Source of the DNA: Sharpea porci
Lineage (GTDB): Bacteria; Bacillota_I; Bacilli_A; Erysipelotrichales; Coprobacillaceae
Length of the DNA: 48,425 bases
Reading direction: 5' to 3'
Assembly: GCF_009695655.1 (NCBI RefSeq)
Contig: NZ_VUNM01000018.1
Location: 1-48,425 of the forward strand
The position numbers and the translations under genes are program-made. Below are positions 3,998 to 43,977 of this stretch, one piece after another (position 1 is the first letter of the stretch; each line of letters starts with the position of its first letter). The notes below the pieces were generated by a model. The model was not told the origin of the DNA and did no database searches. It worked only from the letters and a program-made list of their open reading frames with translations.

Positions 3998-4003
3998 TAT
4001 AGT

Positions 4004-4090
4004 TAAGCCAGGGGTGCGTAATGCTGAGATAGGTTTCACCTAGTCCCTTATCATCTGAACTGGGTAATGCCAGCGTAGAGAGAGCATGAT
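4004..4090 (+). ncRNA. Thiamine pyrophosphate (TPP) riboswitch aptamer
   Basis: The TPP aptamer core is directly recognisable: AGGGGTGC, then GCTGAGA, a short P3 hairpin (AGGTTTCACCT), CCCTTATCATCTGAACTGGG, and TAATGCCAGCGTAG. It lies in the 5' leader of the thiamine transporter gene. Binding of TPP would favour the terminator at 4101-4131 and stop uptake of thiamine when the cofactor is plentiful. Confidence 0.97.
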
Positions 4091-4100
4091 AGAAACAATA

Positions 4101-15912: not shown

Positions 15913-18900
15913 TTATTCGTCACTACGTCTTCTACGGAAGCTATGTCCTTTATCCTGATACATATTGAAATCTGCCTTCGTAAGAAGTGTATCAAAGTTC
16001 GTAACTTTACCACGTGTCCAGGCAAAGCCAATAGCCATACTAATACCATTAATATTAGCACTATCACGCATATGTTGGATCAAGAGATGGATATCTCGTT
16101 CTTCAAGTTCTTCAGTAAGCACGATGAATTCATCTCCACCTGTTCTAAAGACATAATTCTCTCCTGCACATTCCATAAGTATTCTTGCAGTTTCATGTAT
16201 CATCATATCACCCGCATGATGACCTTTTGTGTCATTGGTATTTTTCAAGCCATTCAAATCGATGGAAATAACACCAAGTACACCATCACCCTGCCATTGA
16301 CTAATACGTTGTTCTAATGCACGACGGTTGCCTGCACCAGTCAGCTGATCTATCATACTTTGTTTTTCTAGCTCAAGCAAAATATTTCTATTTCTTACCA
16401 TTACAGCAATAAAATCTGTAAGTGTCGAATAGATTACACTGCCTCTTGAAAAGCTTTCTTCAGACGGGTTGATGACGAGGGTAAAGCCCTCTGTTTGATT
16501 CTGTAATAATAGCTGCCCAGATATAAAGCTATGGACACCATGTATTCCAAGCTTGAAATCTGGATGTTCTTTTTGAAATGCATCCATATCATGAATCATA
16601 ACGAGATGTTCTGATATGAACCTTTCGTAGAGTGCTCGTAATTCTGTTTTTGAAATGCTTTGTAGTTCTTCTTTAAGTGGTACTACACCTGGCATTGTCC
16701 ATTCATAAGTGGCACTGACAGTATTATCATCTCGTTCTTCAAAAATAAGGAAGCGTTCTGGCTGCATATCTTCAGAAATACTAGATATCGTCTGTTCAAT
16801 AGCTTTCTCTGGATCAGCTTCCTGCATACCACGGGATATAGCATCATTAGCACGTATTTCATTATAAAAGAATTCATGATTACCCGCCATTGTTTCAATA
16901 TACTCATTGATATCAAAGGCAATGGTAACCTTCAATATACGTTTATCCCATGTCATTAAAAATGATCGTACGATAAAGTTTTTTCCTTTTTTATGACTCT
17001 TATGTTTTGCCCCAAATACACGATCCATACGCAACATCAGATTAGGGCAATCTTTGCATGGTTCATTGAACCCTTCAAGCATTTTATAACACTTGCATCC
17101 CTTTAAGCTAAACTTTTCATCAATACCAAGATCTTTTCTTGCAGATTGATTCAAATAGACTAATTCATATGTCTTTGGATCACTGATAATTACATGTTCT
17201 GGAAGAGTATTCAAGATCTCCTTACTAACATAAATACGATCTTCTGTATATGGCTTTTCACCATAAGCTTCTTTTTCTGCACTATTCATTCTACGAATCA
17301 AAAGCTGCAGCATTTCATCAAGACTTAATACTTCTGATCCATAAGCTACAGCATGCATCATTGCAGAATTTGTATGAATGCCAAGCTGTCTCCATAATAC
17401 CGGAAGAACTCCAGATACTGCTGAAAGCTGTTCTTCAATACGATCTGCATTCTCTCTTTGACAGAAACAAAGAAAACAGCATAAGCCAATTCTTGCAATA
17501 GACCAGCCGAGTGTAAATGTATTTTTCACTGCTTCCGAGAATTTCATCAATATCGCTCTCGCATTTTCTCCACTCTCTTGCATTACTTCAGCATAAGCAG
17601 GAACATCAATAAGAACACCAACATAATCTATCTTATTTGAACGATATTGATCAGAGAAAAGCAAGCCCGCTTCAATCGCACCACGGAAACTCAAAAGACC
17701 AGTATCAGGATCTATTAACCCCAATCTTGATTCCTCATTATTGTCTTCCATCTTTTTTGTGTTGATCATGGCAAGTGTGCCTGCCAATTCTTTTTCTAGA
17801 TACCATGGTTTACGTTCAATACTCAGCTCGCTCACCCTGCCTTTTGACAATACGAGTTCTTCTTGAATATTGACATGTCGTGGTTTTATTTCATCATTCG
17901 CAAAATGAGTGCCAATTTCCTTCTCTGTTTTCCCTATAAATTCTGACGGATCTTTGACTCTTTCTTGTGCCTGAAGGCTTTTGCTGGCTCCAAGAATATG
18001 TCCTTTTTGATCTTCCCAATAGAATAAATAAGGGGAATCTTCGCACAATGTACGAAAGAGACTACTTTCAGCTTGGGTTTCAGGCTGAATGGCGTTATAT
18101 CCTGATATTCCAAAAGATCGACAAAATACTGGTAGAAGTGCATCTCTGTCACTCTTTCTTTCCCAGATATCTTCTCGCTCACAAAGCAAGATATTCTTTG
18201 TTGTACTTTTATAAATAATTAATGCTTCAAAGACTTCCCAGCGATATGTTCCATCAACATTTTTTATACGAAAAAGTTCAGACTGAGAAACACCATTCAT
18301 TTTTGTTTTTCTTTCGATGTTTTCAGGATGAATAAAGGTAAAAAAGCGTTCTCTGTCATCTGGATAAACAAGATTATCCGCAAAAAAAGCAATAAAGTCA
18401 TTGATTTTATGAGGAATCTTCTTTTGATTGAGTTCAGGATGGCTGGATTGTAGAATTGTTACTTCCTTTTTCCCACGTTCAAACATATAGAAGCCTTCAT
18501 AGAACTGAAAGATATCACGTAATGTATTATCCAGTGTCTTCGCCTGATTAATTTCCTCATTGTTGCTGATATTGTAGATATGTGCTTCTCCAATCCAATA
18601 ACTTTCATCTCCCGCAATCCATTTAGCACTCACTCTCATGTACTGCCCATTATCCACATAAGTCATTGTCTCTTGTGCCTTTGATTGAAAAGACTTGATC
18701 ATGAAGCGTTGGAATCTTCCACGGAATGGATATCCTGAATCACCAAGATTCTTATTAGCTTCAGCCATTCCCTGTGTTCCTGTGCTTCTCAATTCTCTTT
18801 TATAGGCATCATTTTCAATAAGAAGGGTAATATTTGAACCATCAAAACTGAAAAGAGCTGTTGGGGAATCAGAAACAACATTAACACGCTCAGCTATATT

Positions 18901-37162: not shown

Positions 37163-38740
37163 CTAGAAATCCGCATAGATAGGTGCAACTGGTAAATAAC
37201 CTACACCATAAGCACCAAAGATCAGTACAGCAATAATAAAAGCATAATAAATAGACCATCTTAAGACAATTGGCTTTGAAGCAATAGCCTCTCTGACATT
37301 AATCTTCTTTTCTTTAAGCATACTGATCACAAATAAGATAATTAAAGCAATAATCAAAACACCATAATCATACTTATCGATACCAAGCTTTAAGAGTTCT
37401 TTTCCATTAAATGTAAAGTCTCTTAATGTCTGCGAAAGCATCGCAAAGCCCTGACCTACAGTTGGTGCTCTAAAGAACATTTCACCGACAAAGATAAAGA
37501 TACAGAGTTTGAATGACTGAAAGATGCGATAAGGCTTACTTTCACGATTAATATGCAGTTTCTCACAGCCATTGACAACAAGCTGTTCAGTTAATGATTC
37601 ACTTAGGATAAAGAAGAAGTGGTACATCCCATAGAATAAGTATGTCCATCCTGCTCCATGCCAGAGACCATTGCAGAACCATACAACAAATAACGCAATA
37701 GCACCCGTCACAAGTGGACCATAATGATTACCGAGCTTGGCACGGGTTTTCTTTGTCAAGGCCTTAAGTGGCTTAGAGAGAGACATCGGATAATAGATAT
37801 AGTCTCTAAAGAATGCTCCAAGAGTTATATGCCATCTTGTCCAGAAGTCTGAAACGTTCTTGGCGAAGAATGGCTGACGGAAGTTTTCTGGCAATGTGAT
37901 ATTGAAGATCTGGGCTGTACCAATGACAACATCCATTGTTCCTGAGAATTCGCAATACAGCAGCATTGTATAACCGATCATGCCAAGAAACAGCGTTCCG
38001 CCATGATAATGAGCATAGTTCGTAAATATAAGTGTGACAGGAATATTCAGTCGATCAGCGATGACATACTTCTTAAAGAAGCCCCAGCCGATACGCTGAA
38101 TGCCATAAGTCACATTGTGATAGTTCAATGGCTCACCATTTGTCAGCTGTCCTAATGTATCTGTCGCTCTTACAATTGGTCCTTCCATAATACATGGGAA
38201 GAAGGCAAGATAGAGTGCGAGCTTGAAAAGATTACGTTCTGCCTGAATTTTACCCAGATAGATATCGGATAAATAAGCAATACATTGCAATGTATAATAC
38301 GAAATACCTATTGGCGCAATCATCTTATGATATTTAATAAAAACAGGCACGGATGTTAGTGAAAAGATATCATTTAAAATAGAGACAAAGAAGCCCACAT
38401 ATTTGAACGCAAAGAGCACAGCGACAAAGAGCACAATCGCAAATATCAAGATATGCCATTGTTTTTTCTTATAGCCTGCCTTAATCAGCTTACGTTCACT
38501 ACGTTCAACATCCTTTATGGCTGCTTTCTTTTCCTTCTCAAGGTCATCTAGCCACATGCCAAAGTAATGCACTCCTAGTGTAGCAAGCCAGATAAAGACA
38601 ATGAGTTTATTCGATGCAAACCAAATAAACATATAACTCGCCAACAACAAGATCACTGGTCGCGCTTTACTGCTCGCTAGCTGATAGACAGCCATGAGAA
38701 GAGGAACCATCACCAGATATAATGGTGAAAAATATGACAT
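37163..38740 (-). CDS. MBOAT-family membrane acyltransferase (DltB/AlgI-like)
   Basis: A 525-residue polytopic protein with about ten or more membrane segments. The MBOAT signature is clear: FWTRWHITLGAFFRDYIYYPMS (about residues 290-315) and FVVWFCNGLWHGAGWTYLFYGMYHF with the invariant His in LWHGAG (about 355). DltB takes an acyl group from carrier protein DltC on the cytoplasmic side and moves it across the membrane. The gene begins at the last base of the carrier-protein gene (1-bp overlap), so the products are made in step. It is longer than typical DltB (about 400) because of charged insertions near residues 65-100. Confidence 0.94.
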   Translation of the reverse strand: MSYFSPLYLVMVPLLMAVYQLASSKARPVILLLASYMFIWFASNKLIVFIWLATLGVHYFGMWLDDLEKEKKAAIKDVERSERKLIKAGYKKKQWHILIFAIVLFVAVLFAFKYVGFFVSILNDIFSLTSVPVFIKYHKMIAPIGISYYTLQCIAYLSDIYLGKIQAERNLFKLALYLAFFPCIMEGPIVRATDTLGQLTNGEPLNYHNVTYGIQRIGWGFFKKYVIADRLNIPVTLIFTNYAHYHGGTLFLGMIGYTMLLYCEFSGTMDVVIGTAQIFNITLPENFRQPFFAKNVSDFWTRWHITLGAFFRDYIYYPMSLSKPLKALTKKTRAKLGNHYGPLVTGAIALFVVWFCNGLWHGAGWTYLFYGMYHFFFILSESLTEQLVVNGCEKLHINRESKPYRIFQSFKLCIFIFVGEMFFRAPTVGQGFAMLSQTLRDFTFNGKELLKLGIDKYDYGVLIIALIILFVISMLKEKKINVREAIASKPIVLRWSIYYAFIIAVLIFGAYGVGYLPVAPIYADF

Positions 38741-38967
38741 TATTCTTCCTCTAAACGTTCAATAAGCGCATAGATTTTTTTCGCACTATTGAAGTTATCA
38801 GGCACAATATCAACAGCAGGAATAGAAATATCAAATTCATCTTCAATTTCAGAAATAAGCGAAAGAATAGTCAATGAGTCAAGCTTATGACCATCAATCA
38901 AATCTTCACTATTTTCAAAATCTACTTCTGGTTTTAATTCTTCTAAAATATCTAATAACTGATCCAT
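38740..38967 (-). CDS. Acyl carrier protein (DltC-like)
   Basis: A 75-residue carrier protein. The start at 38967 (MDQLLDILEEL) has GGAGAAAT upstream. The phosphopantetheine attachment Ser is Ser31 in DGHKLDSLTILSL, in the position of the DSL motif of DltC and ACPs. The helices are acidic. It would carry the aminoacyl group loaded by the adenylation enzyme and deliver it to the PLP enzyme and then the MBOAT. It starts two bases after the decarboxylase gene ends. Confidence 0.93.
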   Translation of the reverse strand: MDQLLDILEELKPEVDFENSEDLIDGHKLDSLTILSLISEIEDEFDISIPAVDIVPDNFNSAKKIYALIERLEEE

Positions 38968-38969
38968 AA

Positions 38970-40088
38970 TTATTTCTCCTCCATATTCAATGACCATGTA
39001 TATGTATGGTCTCTCAGTTTCTTAATTTCATCTTTTCTTTGAAGCAGGACAGCAGGTAAGTCTCTTGATAAAAACAAAGCAATACCTTCCGTAATCGAAT
39101 ACGCTCCCGTATTCTTAAAGACAATCAAGTCCCCTACTTCCAAACTTCTCAATGGCATAGCACGCACAACTAAGTCATTCGTTGTACAAAGTGAACCACA
39201 GATAGTCCACAGCTCTTCTTTACCTTCACGATGAGGCAAATGTTCATAAACAGGATTCTTCATCCCCATCATGCCACCATAATAGACAAGCTGGTGAATT
39301 CCACCATCAATAATCGCAAAATGCCCTTCTTTGTTTGTCTTGAAATCTTTGACACTTGTGACATATTGCCCACAACTAGCAACAATACTACGCCCACTTT
39401 CTAAATAAAGCGGTAAATCAAATGACAACATACTATTTAGTTCATCGAGATAGCTATCTTCATCAAATTCTTCATGGAAGTAATGCACCGGTAACCCTGG
39501 CCCATATTCTATTTCCGTAAATGGATAGGCAAGTTCCTCGATGAAATTCTTAAGATAATCAATTTCTTTTTTGATTTTCTTGAGTGAACGCTTTTGTGTT
39601 CCACTGAAATATTCAAGGCCTTCAATAGTCACTTCCTGATCATGTCTTAAAAGAATATCTTTGATATCTTCTTCACTCATACCAAACTGATTACCACTTG
39701 TCAGTCTCAACAATAAGTGATAATGCGTTTGATATTTCTTCGCAAGAGCGATAACAGCATCATATTGATGAAGTGATTCAATCGTCACTCTTAAGACATT
39801 CTTAGTCGCAATTGCTTCTAAGAACTCTTCATCCTTATTGACACCGGAGATGACCATATGGTCATATGGAATACCACTCTTTTGGGCAATACAGAATTCC
39901 CCATACGAACAGATTTCATATCTAGCTACCTTGACATAAGGCGTTAGGAAACCATTGGCTTTAATCGCATAGACAAGTTCGCCATTTGTGAGATGTTGAT
40001 GAAGATAATCTATACGTTTTTGAAGAGTCTCTTGATCAAAGAGATAGAATGGTGTGTGATAGGTCTTAACGATGTCTTCGATTGGCAT
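38970..40088 (-). CDS. PLP-dependent fold-III decarboxylase (LysA/ornithine-type), operon member
   Basis: A 372-residue alanine racemase/diaminopimelate decarboxylase-fold enzyme. PLP is bound by Lys43 in VYAIKANG; LYLESGRSIV, IDGGIHQLVYYGG, CGSLCTTND and GAYS correspond to the C-terminal domain with the active-site Cys and Tyr. It does not carry the usual free-lysine pathway context (no lysC, dapA or dapF). It is closest in layout to decarboxylases found beside an AMP ligase and ACP in exosortase-A loci and in macrolactam antibiotic clusters (vicenistatin VinO), where the substrate is an amino acid bound to a carrier protein. It overlaps the adenylation gene by 23 bp. Confidence 0.9.
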   Translation of the reverse strand: MPIEDIVKTYHTPFYLFDQETLQKRIDYLHQHLTNGELVYAIKANGFLTPYVKVARYEICSYGEFCIAQKSGIPYDHMVISGVNKDEEFLEAIATKNVLRVTIESLHQYDAVIALAKKYQTHYHLLLRLTSGNQFGMSEEDIKDILLRHDQEVTIEGLEYFSGTQKRSLKKIKKEIDYLKNFIEELAYPFTEIEYGPGLPVHYFHEEFDEDSYLDELNSMLSFDLPLYLESGRSIVASCGQYVTSVKDFKTNKEGHFAIIDGGIHQLVYYGGMMGMKNPVYEHLPHREGKEELWTICGSLCTTNDLVVRAMPLRSLEVGDLIVFKNTGAYSITEGIALFLSRDLPAVLLQRKDEIKKLRDHTYTWSLNMEEK

Positions 40089-41580
40089 TCTTATATACCT
40101 CCATTAATGCTTTACGATCTATTTTGCCATTCTTGTTGAGTGGCATGTCTTCAACTTGAATCATTTTTGTTGGAATCATGAAACGAGGGAGACGATCAAT
40201 CAAGGCAATTTTCAAGCTACGTTTATCGATATCACCAATATAGAATGTAATCAGCTTTTCTTTTTCCTGGTCAAAGAGTGAACAGCTCCGTGTCACATGT
40301 TCATCTTCTAGAATCGCATGATCAATTTCTTCTAATTCAATACGATGACCTAAATACTTAATCTGGAAGTCCTTGCGTCCTCTAAAGACAAATTCACCCT
40401 GTTCATTCATATAAGCCAAATCACCCGTACAATACATCATTTCATGATAACCATCAGCTAAAGGATTCTGACGGAACTGGGATGAGGGTTGGCGGTAATA
40501 ACCAATGGCCAAGGCTGTCCCGGTAACGCAGATTTCTCCTGGTTCATTAGTTTTAGTGACAAGCTTGTCATCTTTAAGCAAGAAGACACGTTCATTTGGG
40601 AACGGCTTGCCCGCTGGTAGATAAGTGCTGTAATCTCGTTGAGGATCAATAATATGATAGAGACAGTTGCATGTGATTTCTGTTGGTCCATAGAGATTGA
40701 CAAACATTGTATGAGGCATATGATCCATATAATTCTTTAAATGTTTATAAGGCATTACTTCCCCACTAAAGAGAATCTTGTTGACATGGGCAGGAACTTT
40801 ATAATCCAAGGCTTTATAGACACTAAGTAAGCATAGAGCACTAACTGCCCAGATCATTGTTGTTACTTTCTGTTCATCCAAGAAATCAACAAGCTGTGCT
40901 GGCTGTGAGAAGTAAGCTCTTGGTACTAAAACGAGTGTTGCCCCTACATTTAGTGTGGAATAGATATCTTTGACAGAAACATCAAAATCAAATGGTGCCT
41001 GGTTGGCTAAGATATCATCATGTGTAATATGGAATAAATCATCAAAGATAGGAATAAAATCAATAACACTACGCTGGCCAATGAGGACACCCTTTGGTAC
41101 ACCGGTTGAACCACTTGTGAAATTTAAATAAAGTGGATCTGTATCAATTGTCTGATTACGAATAGAAGAAAGCAAGTCTGCATCTTCTTCCCCAGCTACA
41201 AGTTCCTCAAAAGTAACAACGTTTTCTTTAGTAAACAGTGCTGTGGCTTCTTCTTTGTGATGAGCATCCGTTATCACAAGATCAGCTTCGAGCGTATCAG
41301 CCATGATACGTAAGCGTTCATCAGGCAATTCACTATTAAAGAAGCTATAGAAGTCGTTCGCATAGACAATACCTAAGAAAGCCACAATACAATCCAAGGA
41401 ATGATCCATATAAACAATGACTGGTTTTCTTACCGATGTTTGAGATGCAACAGCACTACCAATAATTCTTGCCTGTCTTGTCACTTCCTGATAGCTTAAA
41501 TACGCTTCACCCGTACTTAAGGCAGGATGTTCTGGATAAAGTGCTGTCGACTTCTCCAACATTTCTAATATATTCTTCAT
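40066..41580 (-). CDS. Amino acid-activating adenylation enzyme (DltA-like)
   Basis: A 504-residue AMP-forming ligase. The start at 41580 (MKNILEMLEKST) has GAGGG upstream. Motifs: NFTSGSTGVPKGVLIG (P-loop, about 145), NLYGPTEITCN (about 285), YCTGDLAYMNEQG, GRKDFQIKYLGHRIELEEID and a terminal NKNGKIDRKAL with the catalytic Lys. It would activate an amino acid and load it on the carrier protein at 38740. The D-Ala-selecting Cys of DltA (in FCGE, as I recall from Bacillus structures) is Ser here in KILFSGEVMP, so the substrate may not be D-alanine. First gene of the operon. Confidence 0.93.
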   Translation of the reverse strand: MKNILEMLEKSTALYPEHPALSTGEAYLSYQEVTRQARIIGSAVASQTSVRKPVIVYMDHSLDCIVAFLGIVYANDFYSFFNSELPDERLRIMADTLEADLVITDAHHKEEATALFTKENVVTFEELVAGEEDADLLSSIRNQTIDTDPLYLNFTSGSTGVPKGVLIGQRSVIDFIPIFDDLFHITHDDILANQAPFDFDVSVKDIYSTLNVGATLVLVPRAYFSQPAQLVDFLDEQKVTTMIWAVSALCLLSVYKALDYKVPAHVNKILFSGEVMPYKHLKNYMDHMPHTMFVNLYGPTEITCNCLYHIIDPQRDYSTYLPAGKPFPNERVFLLKDDKLVTKTNEPGEICVTGTALAIGYYRQPSSQFRQNPLADGYHEMMYCTGDLAYMNEQGEFVFRGRKDFQIKYLGHRIELEEIDHAILEDEHVTRSCSLFDQEKEKLITFYIGDIDKRSLKIALIDRLPRFMIPTKMIQVEDMPLNKNGKIDRKALMEVYKNANRRHR

Positions 41581-41965
41581 TCTTCCCTCTCCCATAAAGT
41601 CAAACTATTTCCATATCAATTATATATTAATATTCAAAATAAATCACGTATAACTGATTTCATGAAATATTTTCATGCATAGGATTTTCTTTTTCATTTC
41701 GCATATTACCTTTTAAGTTTTAAGAAAAAACGTTGATATTTCTTAAAAAAATCTAAACTTTTCCCACATTTTCACTTTAAATCACATTATTCTTTTCACC
41801 TATTCATTAATTACTCTTCATATGACTCACCCACCACTATCATTATATTACAACCCCTTTACATAAAAACAATAGCCATGACATCAATGTACAGAGATGA
41901 TCCATGAATGGTTCATTGAATTTGGTCAAAGAAGAAAAGAGGCTTTCGCCTCTTGAATAAAATAA
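41581..41965. other. 385-bp AT-rich intergenic region
   Basis: Upstream side of the Dlt-like operon and downstream side of tRNA-Leu. No coding sequence was accepted. It contains the tRNA terminator at 41930-41954 and many A/T runs; TATATAAT near 41620 on the minus strand is a possible -10 box but without a convincing -35. Confidence 0.5.
41930..41954 (-). terminator. Terminator downstream of tRNA-Leu(CAG)
   Basis: On the minus strand AAGAGGC (41948-41954) pairs with GCCTCTT (41937-41943) around GAAA and is followed by TTCTTCTTT. Confidence 0.8.
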
Positions 41966-42048
41966 TGGTGCTCGAGATGGGATTTGAACCCACACGGCAT
42001 AACCACCAGTACCTGAAACTGGCGTGTCTACCATTCCACCACTCGAGC
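41966..42048 (-). tRNA. tRNA-Leu (anticodon CAG)
   Basis: 83 nt with encoded CCA. Acceptor arms GCTCGAG (42048-42042) and CTCGAGC (41976-41970), anticodon stem CCAGT/ACTGG around TTCAGGT giving CAG (42013-42015), T arm GGGTTCAAATCCC, and a class II variable arm, as expected of leucine tRNA. Confidence 0.97.
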
Positions 42049-42125: not shown

Positions 42126-42154
42126 TTGACGAATAGAGCGTTTTATATTAAGAT
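42126..42154 (+). promoter_or_regulatory. Candidate promoter of the metNI leader
   Basis: TTGACG (42126-42131), 17-bp spacer, TAAGAT (42149-42154), which would start the transcript near 42161, just before the leader peptide. An alternative -10 (TATATT, 42144-42149) has a short spacer. Confidence 0.45.
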
Positions 42155-42191
42155 ATACCCAATTGATAGGTAGGTATATGGAGGTATTGGT

Positions 42192-42230
42192 ATGATGATG
42201 TTCATGTGTGCATTCAAAACAAAAGCATAG
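42192..42230 (+). CDS. Methionine-rich leader peptide of the metNI attenuator
   Basis: A 12-codon open frame, MMMFMCAFKTKA, with GGAGG (42180-42184) spaced seven bases from its ATG, the best ribosome-binding site in the region. Four of the first five codons are Met and the sixth is Cys. The stop TAG lies at 42228-42230, 21 bases before region 2 of the attenuator. It precedes a methionine transporter operon, so codon content and operon function agree. The peptide is a translation sensor, not expected to have a function of its own. It is too short for usual ORF callers. Confidence 0.82.
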   Translation: MMMFMCAFKTKA

Positions 42231-42271
42231 AGGACTTCTTTCATTACGCAACAATAACCTTATCGATACAG

Positions 42272-42300
42272 ACAGGTATTATTCGTAATACCTGTTTTTT
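42272..42300 (+). terminator. Attenuator terminator before metN
   Basis: ACAGGTATTA and TAATACCTGT, 10 perfect bp with a TTCG tetraloop and T6, ending 16 bp before the metN start. It must be read through or avoided for metNI expression. Confidence 0.93.
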
Positions 42301-42316: not shown

Positions 42317-43312
42317 ATGTCAGAAATAGAAATACGTGATGTTTCCAAAGTCTTTGAAACGGACGAAGGAAAAGTACAGGCATTAAGCCATGTCAATATT
42401 AATATTGAAAAAGGTGATATCTTTGGGATTATCGGGATGTCAGGTGCAGGTAAATCAACATTAGTACGCTGCTTGAATTTCTTAGAGCAGCCAACAAGTG
42501 GTGAAGTTATTGTACGTGGACAAAATCTTAAGGATCTTAATGAAAAACAATTACGCCAGGCGCGTACAAAGATCTCTATGATTTTCCAGAACTTCAACCT
42601 TCTCATGCAGAAAACGGTATTGGACAACGTTTGTTTTCCATTAAAGCTTGCCGGTATTAAAGGTGAAGAAGCGAAAAAGAAAGCAAGAGAATATCTTGAA
42701 ATTGTTGGTTTGGCAGATAAAGCAAAAAACTATCCAGCAATGCTTTCAGGCGGTCAGCGTCAGCGTGTAGCAATCGCTCGTGCTCTTGCCAGCAAGCCAG
42801 AAATTCTGCTTTGCGATGAGGCAACGAGTGCCCTTGACCCTGCTACAACATCTCAGATCTTAGCTTTGTTGAAGCGTATTAATAAGGAAATGGGCATTAC
42901 AATCGTCATTATTACTCACCAGATGTCCGTTATTCAGGATATTTGTGATAATGTCGCTATTATGGAAAATGGCCAGGTTCAGGAAATTGGGAATGTTGAA
43001 GAAATCTTCGCTCATCCAAAGAGTGCTGTTGGTAAGCGTCTTATTCTCAATGTTGAAAACAAAAATACTGCTGCTTCAATCGAAAGCCATCATGCTTATC
43101 GTATTGTCTTTAACGAACAGTCTGCTTTTGAACCTGTGATTGCGAATATGATTCTGACATTCAATAAACCCGTCAATATCTTAATGGCTGATACAAAGAA
43201 TGTCGGTGGTCAGGCTAAAGGGGAAATGATTATTGATTTTGGTGATGGTGATCATCTCGAACAAATTCATTTCTTGAAAGAACGTGGTTTAGATGTTGAG
43301 GAGGTAGAATAA
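42317..43312 (+). CDS. metN: Methionine ABC transporter ATP-binding protein
   Basis: A 331-residue ABC ATPase. The start at 42317 (MSEIEIRDVSKVF) has AAGGAGG upstream; a longer frame into the leader would cross the attenuator. Walker A GMSGAGKST (40-48), Q loop IFQNFNL, signature LSGGQRQRVAIARAL, Walker B LLCDEATSALD and the H loop (VIITHQM) are complete. The C-terminal about 75 residues (HAYRIVFNEQSAFEPVIANM...EMIIDFGDGDHL) are the NIL/ACT-like domain that binds methionine and inhibits the pump when it is plentiful. It pairs with metI, which overlaps its stop codon. No metQ substrate-binding gene follows. Confidence 0.96.
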   Translation: MSEIEIRDVSKVFETDEGKVQALSHVNINIEKGDIFGIIGMSGAGKSTLVRCLNFLEQPTSGEVIVRGQNLKDLNEKQLRQARTKISMIFQNFNLLMQKTVLDNVCFPLKLAGIKGEEAKKKAREYLEIVGLADKAKNYPAMLSGGQRQRVAIARALASKPEILLCDEATSALDPATTSQILALLKRINKEMGITIVIITHQMSVIQDICDNVAIMENGQVQEIGNVEEIFAHPKSAVGKRLILNVENKNTAASIESHHAYRIVFNEQSAFEPVIANMILTFNKPVNILMADTKNVGGQAKGEMIIDFGDGDHLEQIHFLKERGLDVEEVE

Positions 43313-43977
43313 TGAATAGTATGTCACTTACAGAAATTCTCAGTATTATTGGTCCTGAAACTGTGAATACATTAATAATGGTTATTGTATCAACAGTCCT
43401 TGGTTATGTCTTTGGTATTCCTCTAGGCATCATTCTCACTTTAACAGATGAAAGAGGCTTAAAACCAAATAAAACCATCTACTTTATTCTTGATTTTATT
43501 GTCAATGTCTTCCGTTCTATACCATTTATTATCTTATTGGTATGGATTCTTCCATTTACTAGAGCCATTGTTCATACAACATTAGGTGTTCCTGGGGCCA
43601 TCGTTCCATTAACAGTCTCAGCTATTCCTTTTATCGCTCGTATGATCGAACAAAGCTTAAAAGAAGTTGATCCTGGTGTTATTGAAGCGGCCAAATCAAT
43701 GGGCGCAAATACATTCCAGATTGTCATTCATGTCTTACTCGTCGAAGCAAGAAGCTCACTTGTCCTTGGTACAACAATTGTCTTTGCTTCAATTGTCGGT
43801 TATGCGGCTATGGCTGGTACAGTTGGTGCTGGTGGTCTTGGTGATGTCGCTATTCGTTATGGATATCAGCGTTATATTGCCAGCATGATGTATGCTTCTA
43901 TTATTGTCACTGTTATTATTGTCCAGCTCTTCCAGCTTGTTGGTAACTATCTTGCGAAACGTGTTGATAAGAGGTAA
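43312..43977 (+). CDS. metI: Methionine ABC transporter permease
   Basis: A 221-residue membrane permease with five predicted helices and the cytoplasmic EAA loop VIEAAKSMGANTFQIVIHVLLVEARSSL (about residues 123-150) that contacts MetN. It forms the channel for L-methionine and derivatives. The start overlaps the metN stop, so translation is coupled, and it ends in a terminator, making metN-metI a two-gene operon. The periplasmic/lipid-anchored binding protein MetQ must be encoded elsewhere. Confidence 0.95.
   Translation: MNSMSLTEILSIIGPETVNTLIMVIVSTVLGYVFGIPLGIILTLTDERGLKPNKTIYFILDFIVNVFRSIPFIILLVWILPFTRAIVHTTLGVPGAIVPLTVSAIPFIARMIEQSLKEVDPGVIEAAKSMGANTFQIVIHVLLVEARSSLVLGTTIVFASIVGYAAMAGTVGAGGLGDVAIRYGYQRYIASMMYASIIVTVIIVQLFQLVGNYLAKRVDKR

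Follow-up and report, generated by a model that had tools for sequence, protein, structure and literature searches.

The window (the whole 48,425-nt stretch of DNA analysed) derives from a gut bacterium of the genus Sharpea. At this locus the closest genome, itself from Sharpea, matches Sharpea azabuensis DSM 18934, with a MetN identity of 98%. Upstream of the element described here lies a tRNA-Leu gene in divergent orientation (41966-42048, minus strand), and downstream lie the genes metN and metI on the plus strand. metN (42317-43312) encodes a methionine ABC transporter ATPase with a C-terminal NIL domain, assigned by NCBIfam and Pfam profiles; its best NCBIfam match is TIGR02314, under the strict equivalog cut-off, and the NIL domain (PF09383) is over the Pfam cut-off. 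metI (43312-43977) encodes the methionine ABC transporter permease (NF008049, above cut-off), and the operon downstream of the leader is, as judged from these profiles, MetN/MetI-like. A putative sigma-70-type promoter (TTGACG-17 nt-TAAGAT, 42126-42154, plus strand) is identical to S. azabuensis in 28 of 29 positions, and transcription would be expected to start at about 42160-42162. The number of promoter-like sites is not above that in shuffles; TTGACG-type boxes were read at the equivalent place after tRNA-Leu in the sequences of several sister genera. The neighboring minus-strand genes at 37163-41595, read by eye from their translations, encode an AMP-dependent adenylating enzyme, a PLP-type decarboxylase/racemase-like protein, a carrier protein and an MBOAT-like protein, and the cluster resembles dlt with an added decarboxylase-like gene.

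The metNI leader contains a short open reading frame (42192-42230, plus strand) encoding MMMFMCAFKTKA followed by a stop codon, with the codons ATG ATG ATG TTC ATG TGT GCA TTC AAA ACA AAA GCA TAG. Met codons 2, 3 and 5 are the putative control codons, accounting for 3 of 11 internal codons, and codon 6 encodes Cys. The initial annotation had described a 12-codon Met frame with a ribosome-binding site, and both were found where it placed them, the GGAGG sequence lying at 42180-42184 with a spacing of 7 nt to the ATG. Such frames are rare by chance: an ORF preceded by a Shine-Dalgarno sequence and containing at least three internal Met (at least 10%) occurred in 25 of 5000 dinucleotide shuffles of 42160-42271, and one with a Met density of at least 25% in 3 of 5000. 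The frame is also the sole uORF of this kind in the non-coding DNA of the window, both strands having been searched. We infer that it is translated, that ribosomes stall within it, and that transcription can read through beyond it.

The frame is followed by an intrinsic terminator (ACAGGTATTA-TTCG-TAATACCTGT and T6; 42272-42300, plus strand), identical to S. azabuensis in 29 of 29 positions. Its two arms are termed regions 3 and 4, and the 3:4 hairpin spans 42272-42295; with its flanking pairs and T tail (42270-42300) the structure comprises a 12-pair stem closed by the TTCG loop. The hairpin with TTCG loop and T6 reported in the initial annotation is thus present, with a duplex energy of -14.8 kcal/mol. 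Because the upstream gene runs away from the terminator, and the T-run ends only 16 nt before the metN start, the terminator is located within the metNI 5' UTR, and this position beside a divergent tRNA-Leu gene means that it is not the end signal of an upstream gene.

An Rfam scan of the window found no known riboswitch in the leader, with no covariance-model match to the S-box (RF00162) or T-box (RF00230), in agreement with the earlier remark that neither could be seen there, and a scan of 16 related loci was equally negative for known riboswitches and T-boxes in the leader. T-boxes occur elsewhere in the Sharpea genome (19 matches), and its only S-box-like match is located before metK (L117; contig C26 of genome G000, 18533-18632), scoring 43.0 bits in both Sharpea genomes, slightly below the Rfam gathering threshold of 44.4. 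Among the more distant metN genes of this family (42-49% identity), most have a T-box upstream, as read from their sequences. Both the S-box and the T-box precede metN elsewhere in these lineages, with a sensor that differs from the one proposed for Sharpea. The same scan detected a TPP riboswitch at 4000-4099 of the window (plus strand, 66.9 bits).

In S. azabuensis, the leader peptide is MMMFMCALNTKA, and the arrangement of GGAGG, ORF and terminator is kept. From the promoter end to the T-run, 137 of 146 positions are identical between the two species, compared with 261/331 third codon positions in metN and 176/221 in metI; the intergenic DNA before the promoter is likewise well conserved (70/77), and conservation alone is therefore not proof of leader function. 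The closest metN orthologs (67-72% identical), from four sister-genus genomes (G009, which matches Kandleria vitulina, G011, G017 and G020), have no leader or terminator at metN, nor was a T-box seen in their metN upstream regions. Direct comparative evidence thus comes from two species of one genus: the comparison of metNI leaders among relatives, proposed with the initial annotation, bears out the frame and terminator within Sharpea, not at sister-genus metN, and two species give no covariation. A pattern search for the leader start in six genomes returned only chance-like matches besides the Sharpea site and its S. azabuensis ortholog. At the position of the Sharpea leader, the sister genera share a GTTAT(GA)ACAT-like motif in the metN 5' UTR (L033-L036, last 60-100 nt before metN, by eye), a possible candidate operator.

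The metQ gene is unlinked to metNI in Sharpea and is preceded by a different Met-containing uORF, MTRMRMPSWGNIKTK..., corresponding to MKRMRMPVGG... in S. azabuensis, in both cases with no terminator. In Kandleria and G020, metQ is preceded by a Met-rich leader with a terminator (MTRAMMKYYSMCNCKQ... and MTYFNAMMTMRMTMWDY..., respectively), followed by a second short uORF (MNTKDEMCSFIYY, MLNTRMCKPIRH). From these metQ uORFs, it appears that the methionine transport units of the family repeatedly bear Met-codon uORFs. Homology between the Sharpea metN leader and these metQ leaders was considered: the best alignment with the Kandleria leader, in the terminator region, was marginal (6 of 500 shuffles as good), the G020 leader gave no alignment, and common ancestry is not claimed.

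Other metN and metQ loci were surveyed among relatives fetched by MetN similarity, many of the gene identities being assigned by that similarity alone. A Met-rich uORF with a terminator was found on the metN strand at 26 of 205 loci, compared with 0 of 205 on the antisense strand; these loci are mostly from Clostridia, and some share a genome, such that the 26 cases are not all independent. The thresholds were fixed after the first examples had been seen, for which the opposite-strand count serves as the control, and leaders that are poorer in Met codons or have a weaker terminator escape the automatic criteria. Three further cases were recognized by eye (L197, L200 and L316). By the automatic criteria, such leaders were present at 11 of 110 loci in a Clostridia sample and 17 of 51 in a Fusobacteriota sample, and at 0 of 30 in a sample from the window's own phylum. 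Examples of such unrelated Met-rich frames, each with a ribosome-binding site and a terminator before metN or metQ, are MSRVAFKAMTMMMDMCMDMAMCKFSRALL and MQKVIPGAMMMMGMCMGMAMCSTSYALLQDL in Clostridia, MKHLYSAAMMMDMMMNMGMRMSFKCD in an Erysipelotrichaceae MAG and MINKVVTFKMNMMHM in Streptobacillus. No S-box or T-box accompanied the Met-rich leader in any of the 11 Clostridia and 17 Fusobacteriota cases, these calls being made with motif patterns rather than covariance scans of every locus, and S-boxes are frequent at Fusobacteriota loci without a Met-rich frame. A 3-nt in-frame indel falls inside the Met run of Fusobacteriota leaders.

The effect of a stalled ribosome on RNA folding was modelled for several of these leaders. 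In two from Clostridia (L067 and L071), folded up to the terminator loop, the predicted pairing of region 3 with upstream RNA is 0.01-0.15 with no ribosome or with a ribosome at the stop codon, and reaches as much as 0.76-0.84 when the ribosome is stalled within the Met run. In these structures, the leader pairs with a GTTGCTT segment that is otherwise the partner of the terminator-arm AAGCA. Within the model, this is the behavior of classical attenuation: the antiterminator, which takes up most of region 3, is predicted exclusively for a ribosome stalled at the Met codons. The stalling effect has a mean of 0.263 across 29 leaders, compared with 0.160 (sd 0.035, maximum 0.247) for 40 shuffled-spacer sets, all of which it exceeds.

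A separate class of uORF, containing an in-frame CGA-ATG pair, was observed upstream of metQ or metN at 13 of 247 loci in the sense orientation and at none antisense (L064, L069, L084, L085, L086, L236, L321, L322, L324 and others), with peptides such as ...NNFRCGRM and, ending at the stop codon, ...SNFNLRRM. In many cases a Met-rich leader with its terminator comes first, and this uORF second. The Sharpea metQ uORF, M(T/K)RMRMP..., has two in-frame Arg-Met pairs of this type and no terminator (L322, contig C77 of G000, reverse-complement position 1322; L321 in S. azabuensis). These uORFs possibly act translationally.

We interpret the element as a ribosome-mediated transcription attenuator in which the Met-rich leader peptide controls metNI, with a probability of about 0.8. 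The evidence for this reading is comparative and computational, and comprises the leader frame with its Shine-Dalgarno site, the intrinsic terminator, the identity of the operon, conservation in the genus, and recurrence before the same genes in other lineages. RNA polymerase would start at about 42160, and a ribosome would begin to translate the 12 codons of the leader. When Met-tRNA is plentiful, the ribosome would move past the Met codons, allowing the RNA behind it to close, region 1 or the 5' end pairing with region 2, and the 3:4 hairpin would stop transcription ahead of metN. With scarce charged Met-tRNA, the ribosome would wait at codons 2-5, covering region 1, and would prevent 3:4 pairing through region 2, through its own occupancy, or both, such that the polymerase would continue into metNI.

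The trp, his, leu and ilv leaders of enterobacteria are the classical ribosome-mediated attenuators. Like the Sharpea element, they have a leader ORF with codons for the operon's amino acid, followed by a terminator and overlapping alternative pairings; in Sharpea, the control codons are Met, region 1 holds the leader's own ribosome-binding site, and the predicted antiterminator is much weaker. In Firmicutes, His leader peptides replace T-boxes before hisS and hisZ (PMC2965389), a leader peptide in the place of a T-box as in Sharpea, with a different amino acid and genes. An earlier comparative study of Actinobacteria detected no conserved RNA structure upstream of methionine operons (PMC1262725), and a Met leader, metL, was proposed before metNIQ of Streptomyces lividans TK24 in 2021 from transcriptome data (PMC8079986). 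As in Sharpea, metL is a short Met-codon frame directly before metN, and its peptide MSTTSDRTPATEATTTPGARCMCRRMCAF has an MCAF string in common with the Sharpea peptide; shared ancestry is not claimed. metL belongs to an actinobacterium, has a leaderless start, and was reported to lack a typical Rho-independent terminator (PMC8079986), whereas in Sharpea the leader frame is preceded by a Shine-Dalgarno site and followed by a clear terminator. A literature search, which covered papers outside subscription, found no earlier report of a Met leader in Bacillota or Fusobacteriota. The initial statement that no methionine leader of this kind had been described therefore holds for this group in the literature searched, with S. 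lividans metL as a precedent outside it; a Met leader as such had already been proposed, and its distribution in Bacillota and Fusobacteriota seems new.

A narrower form of the attenuator reading, whose confidence overlaps with that of the general one, is the exact geometry of the initial annotation, in which the ribosome covers region 1 and releases region 2 to form a 2:3 antiterminator. Region 1 (GGAGGTATTG, 42180-42190, plus strand) contains the leader's ribosome-binding site, and region 2 (CAATAACCTT, 42252-42261, plus strand) has a core, CAATAACC, that is kept in S. azabuensis despite a 3-nt indel in the spacer. All three pairings exist: 1:2 (GAGGTATTG/CAATAACCT) and 2:3 (AATAACCT/AGGTATT) contain one bulged A each, 1:2 is the stronger as had been claimed (-8.6 versus -4.1 kcal/mol), and the AGGTATT heptamer is common to regions 1 and 3. 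When a ribosome is placed at Met codon 2, 3 or 5, the predicted 2:3-side pairing of region 3 rises from 0.00-0.01 to 0.15-0.25 in both Sharpea species. The gain in region-3 pairing on stalling, from 0.00-0.01 to 0.23-0.25, has the expected sign, but it is equalled by 11 of 40 and 20 of 40 shuffled spacers in the two species, and the 2:3 duplex falls to -2.9 kcal/mol in S. azabuensis. Moreover, the RNA 5' end (ACCTTATCGAT, about 42161-42171, plus strand), which does not figure in the initial annotation, is predicted to pair with region 2 at -9.3 kcal/mol (-7.9 in S. azabuensis), the strongest non-terminator pairing among those tested; it may compete with region 1 and would lie outside a stalled ribosome. 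Equilibrium folding of the whole leader does not help to decide, since the terminator wins every time. Because of the weak 2:3 duplex, the shuffle-level effect and the uncovered 5'-end competitor, we rate this geometry below the attenuator itself, at somewhat short of even odds. The core of the earlier proposal, a Met leader-peptide attenuator of metNI, is thus well supported, and its specific 1:2/2:3/3:4 switch is not established.

The strength of the 5' end:region 2 pairing, together with a leader that folds well as a whole (z -2.05), would also suit a real terminator under other control, by an RNA-binding protein acting as antiterminator or by a riboswitch of an undescribed kind built on the 5'-end, region-1 and region-2 pairings, with the Met frame incidental. 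The recurrence of Met-rich frames before the same genes in unrelated surrounding sequence, the lack of an Rfam match and the rarity of the frame in shuffles make this improbable. Slightly less probable again is nascent-peptide arrest, in which the Met/Cys-rich peptide, often M-C-x-F, would itself halt the ribosome; the signal would then be a metabolite, for example methionine or SAM, and not codon hunger. In non-Fusobacterial leaders, an internal Met is followed by Cys in 30 of 122 cases (Cys being 63 of 511 non-Met residues), and an MC(A/K/T)F string recurs among leaders, its MCAF form also occurring in the S. lividans peptide. However, Cys follows an internal Met in only 1 of 52 cases in Fusobacteriota, a peptide of 12 residues is hardly long enough to fill the exit tunnel, and the additional Cys codons are in keeping with a simple sensor of the two sulfur amino acids, suggesting that the non-Fusobacterial Met leaders may also sense cysteine. 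An unregulated, constitutive partial terminator is very unlikely given that Met-codon leaders recur before metN and metQ terminators, with none antisense.

Attenuation by a Met-rich leader peptide thus remains the preferred reading for Sharpea metNI. Methionine uptake in Bacillota is, in the textbook view, under S-box or T-box control. Many Clostridia and Fusobacteriota have Met-rich leaders instead, never together with an S-box or T-box in the loci read. A wider proposal, which we put forward tentatively and consider rather doubtful as a whole, is that methionine uptake has, beside the S-box and T-box, a third general RNA-level solution in the Met(-Cys) leaders, used repeatedly and independently in Bacillota and Fusobacteriota, and that part of the group has a second tandem uORF, with the conserved CGA-AUG pair just before metQ or metN, whose mechanism would be distinct and undescribed, perhaps a translational one that senses Met or SAM. 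These loci provide ready cases for how regulators of one operon replace each other, and for how the ribosome senses an amino acid that also starts every protein.
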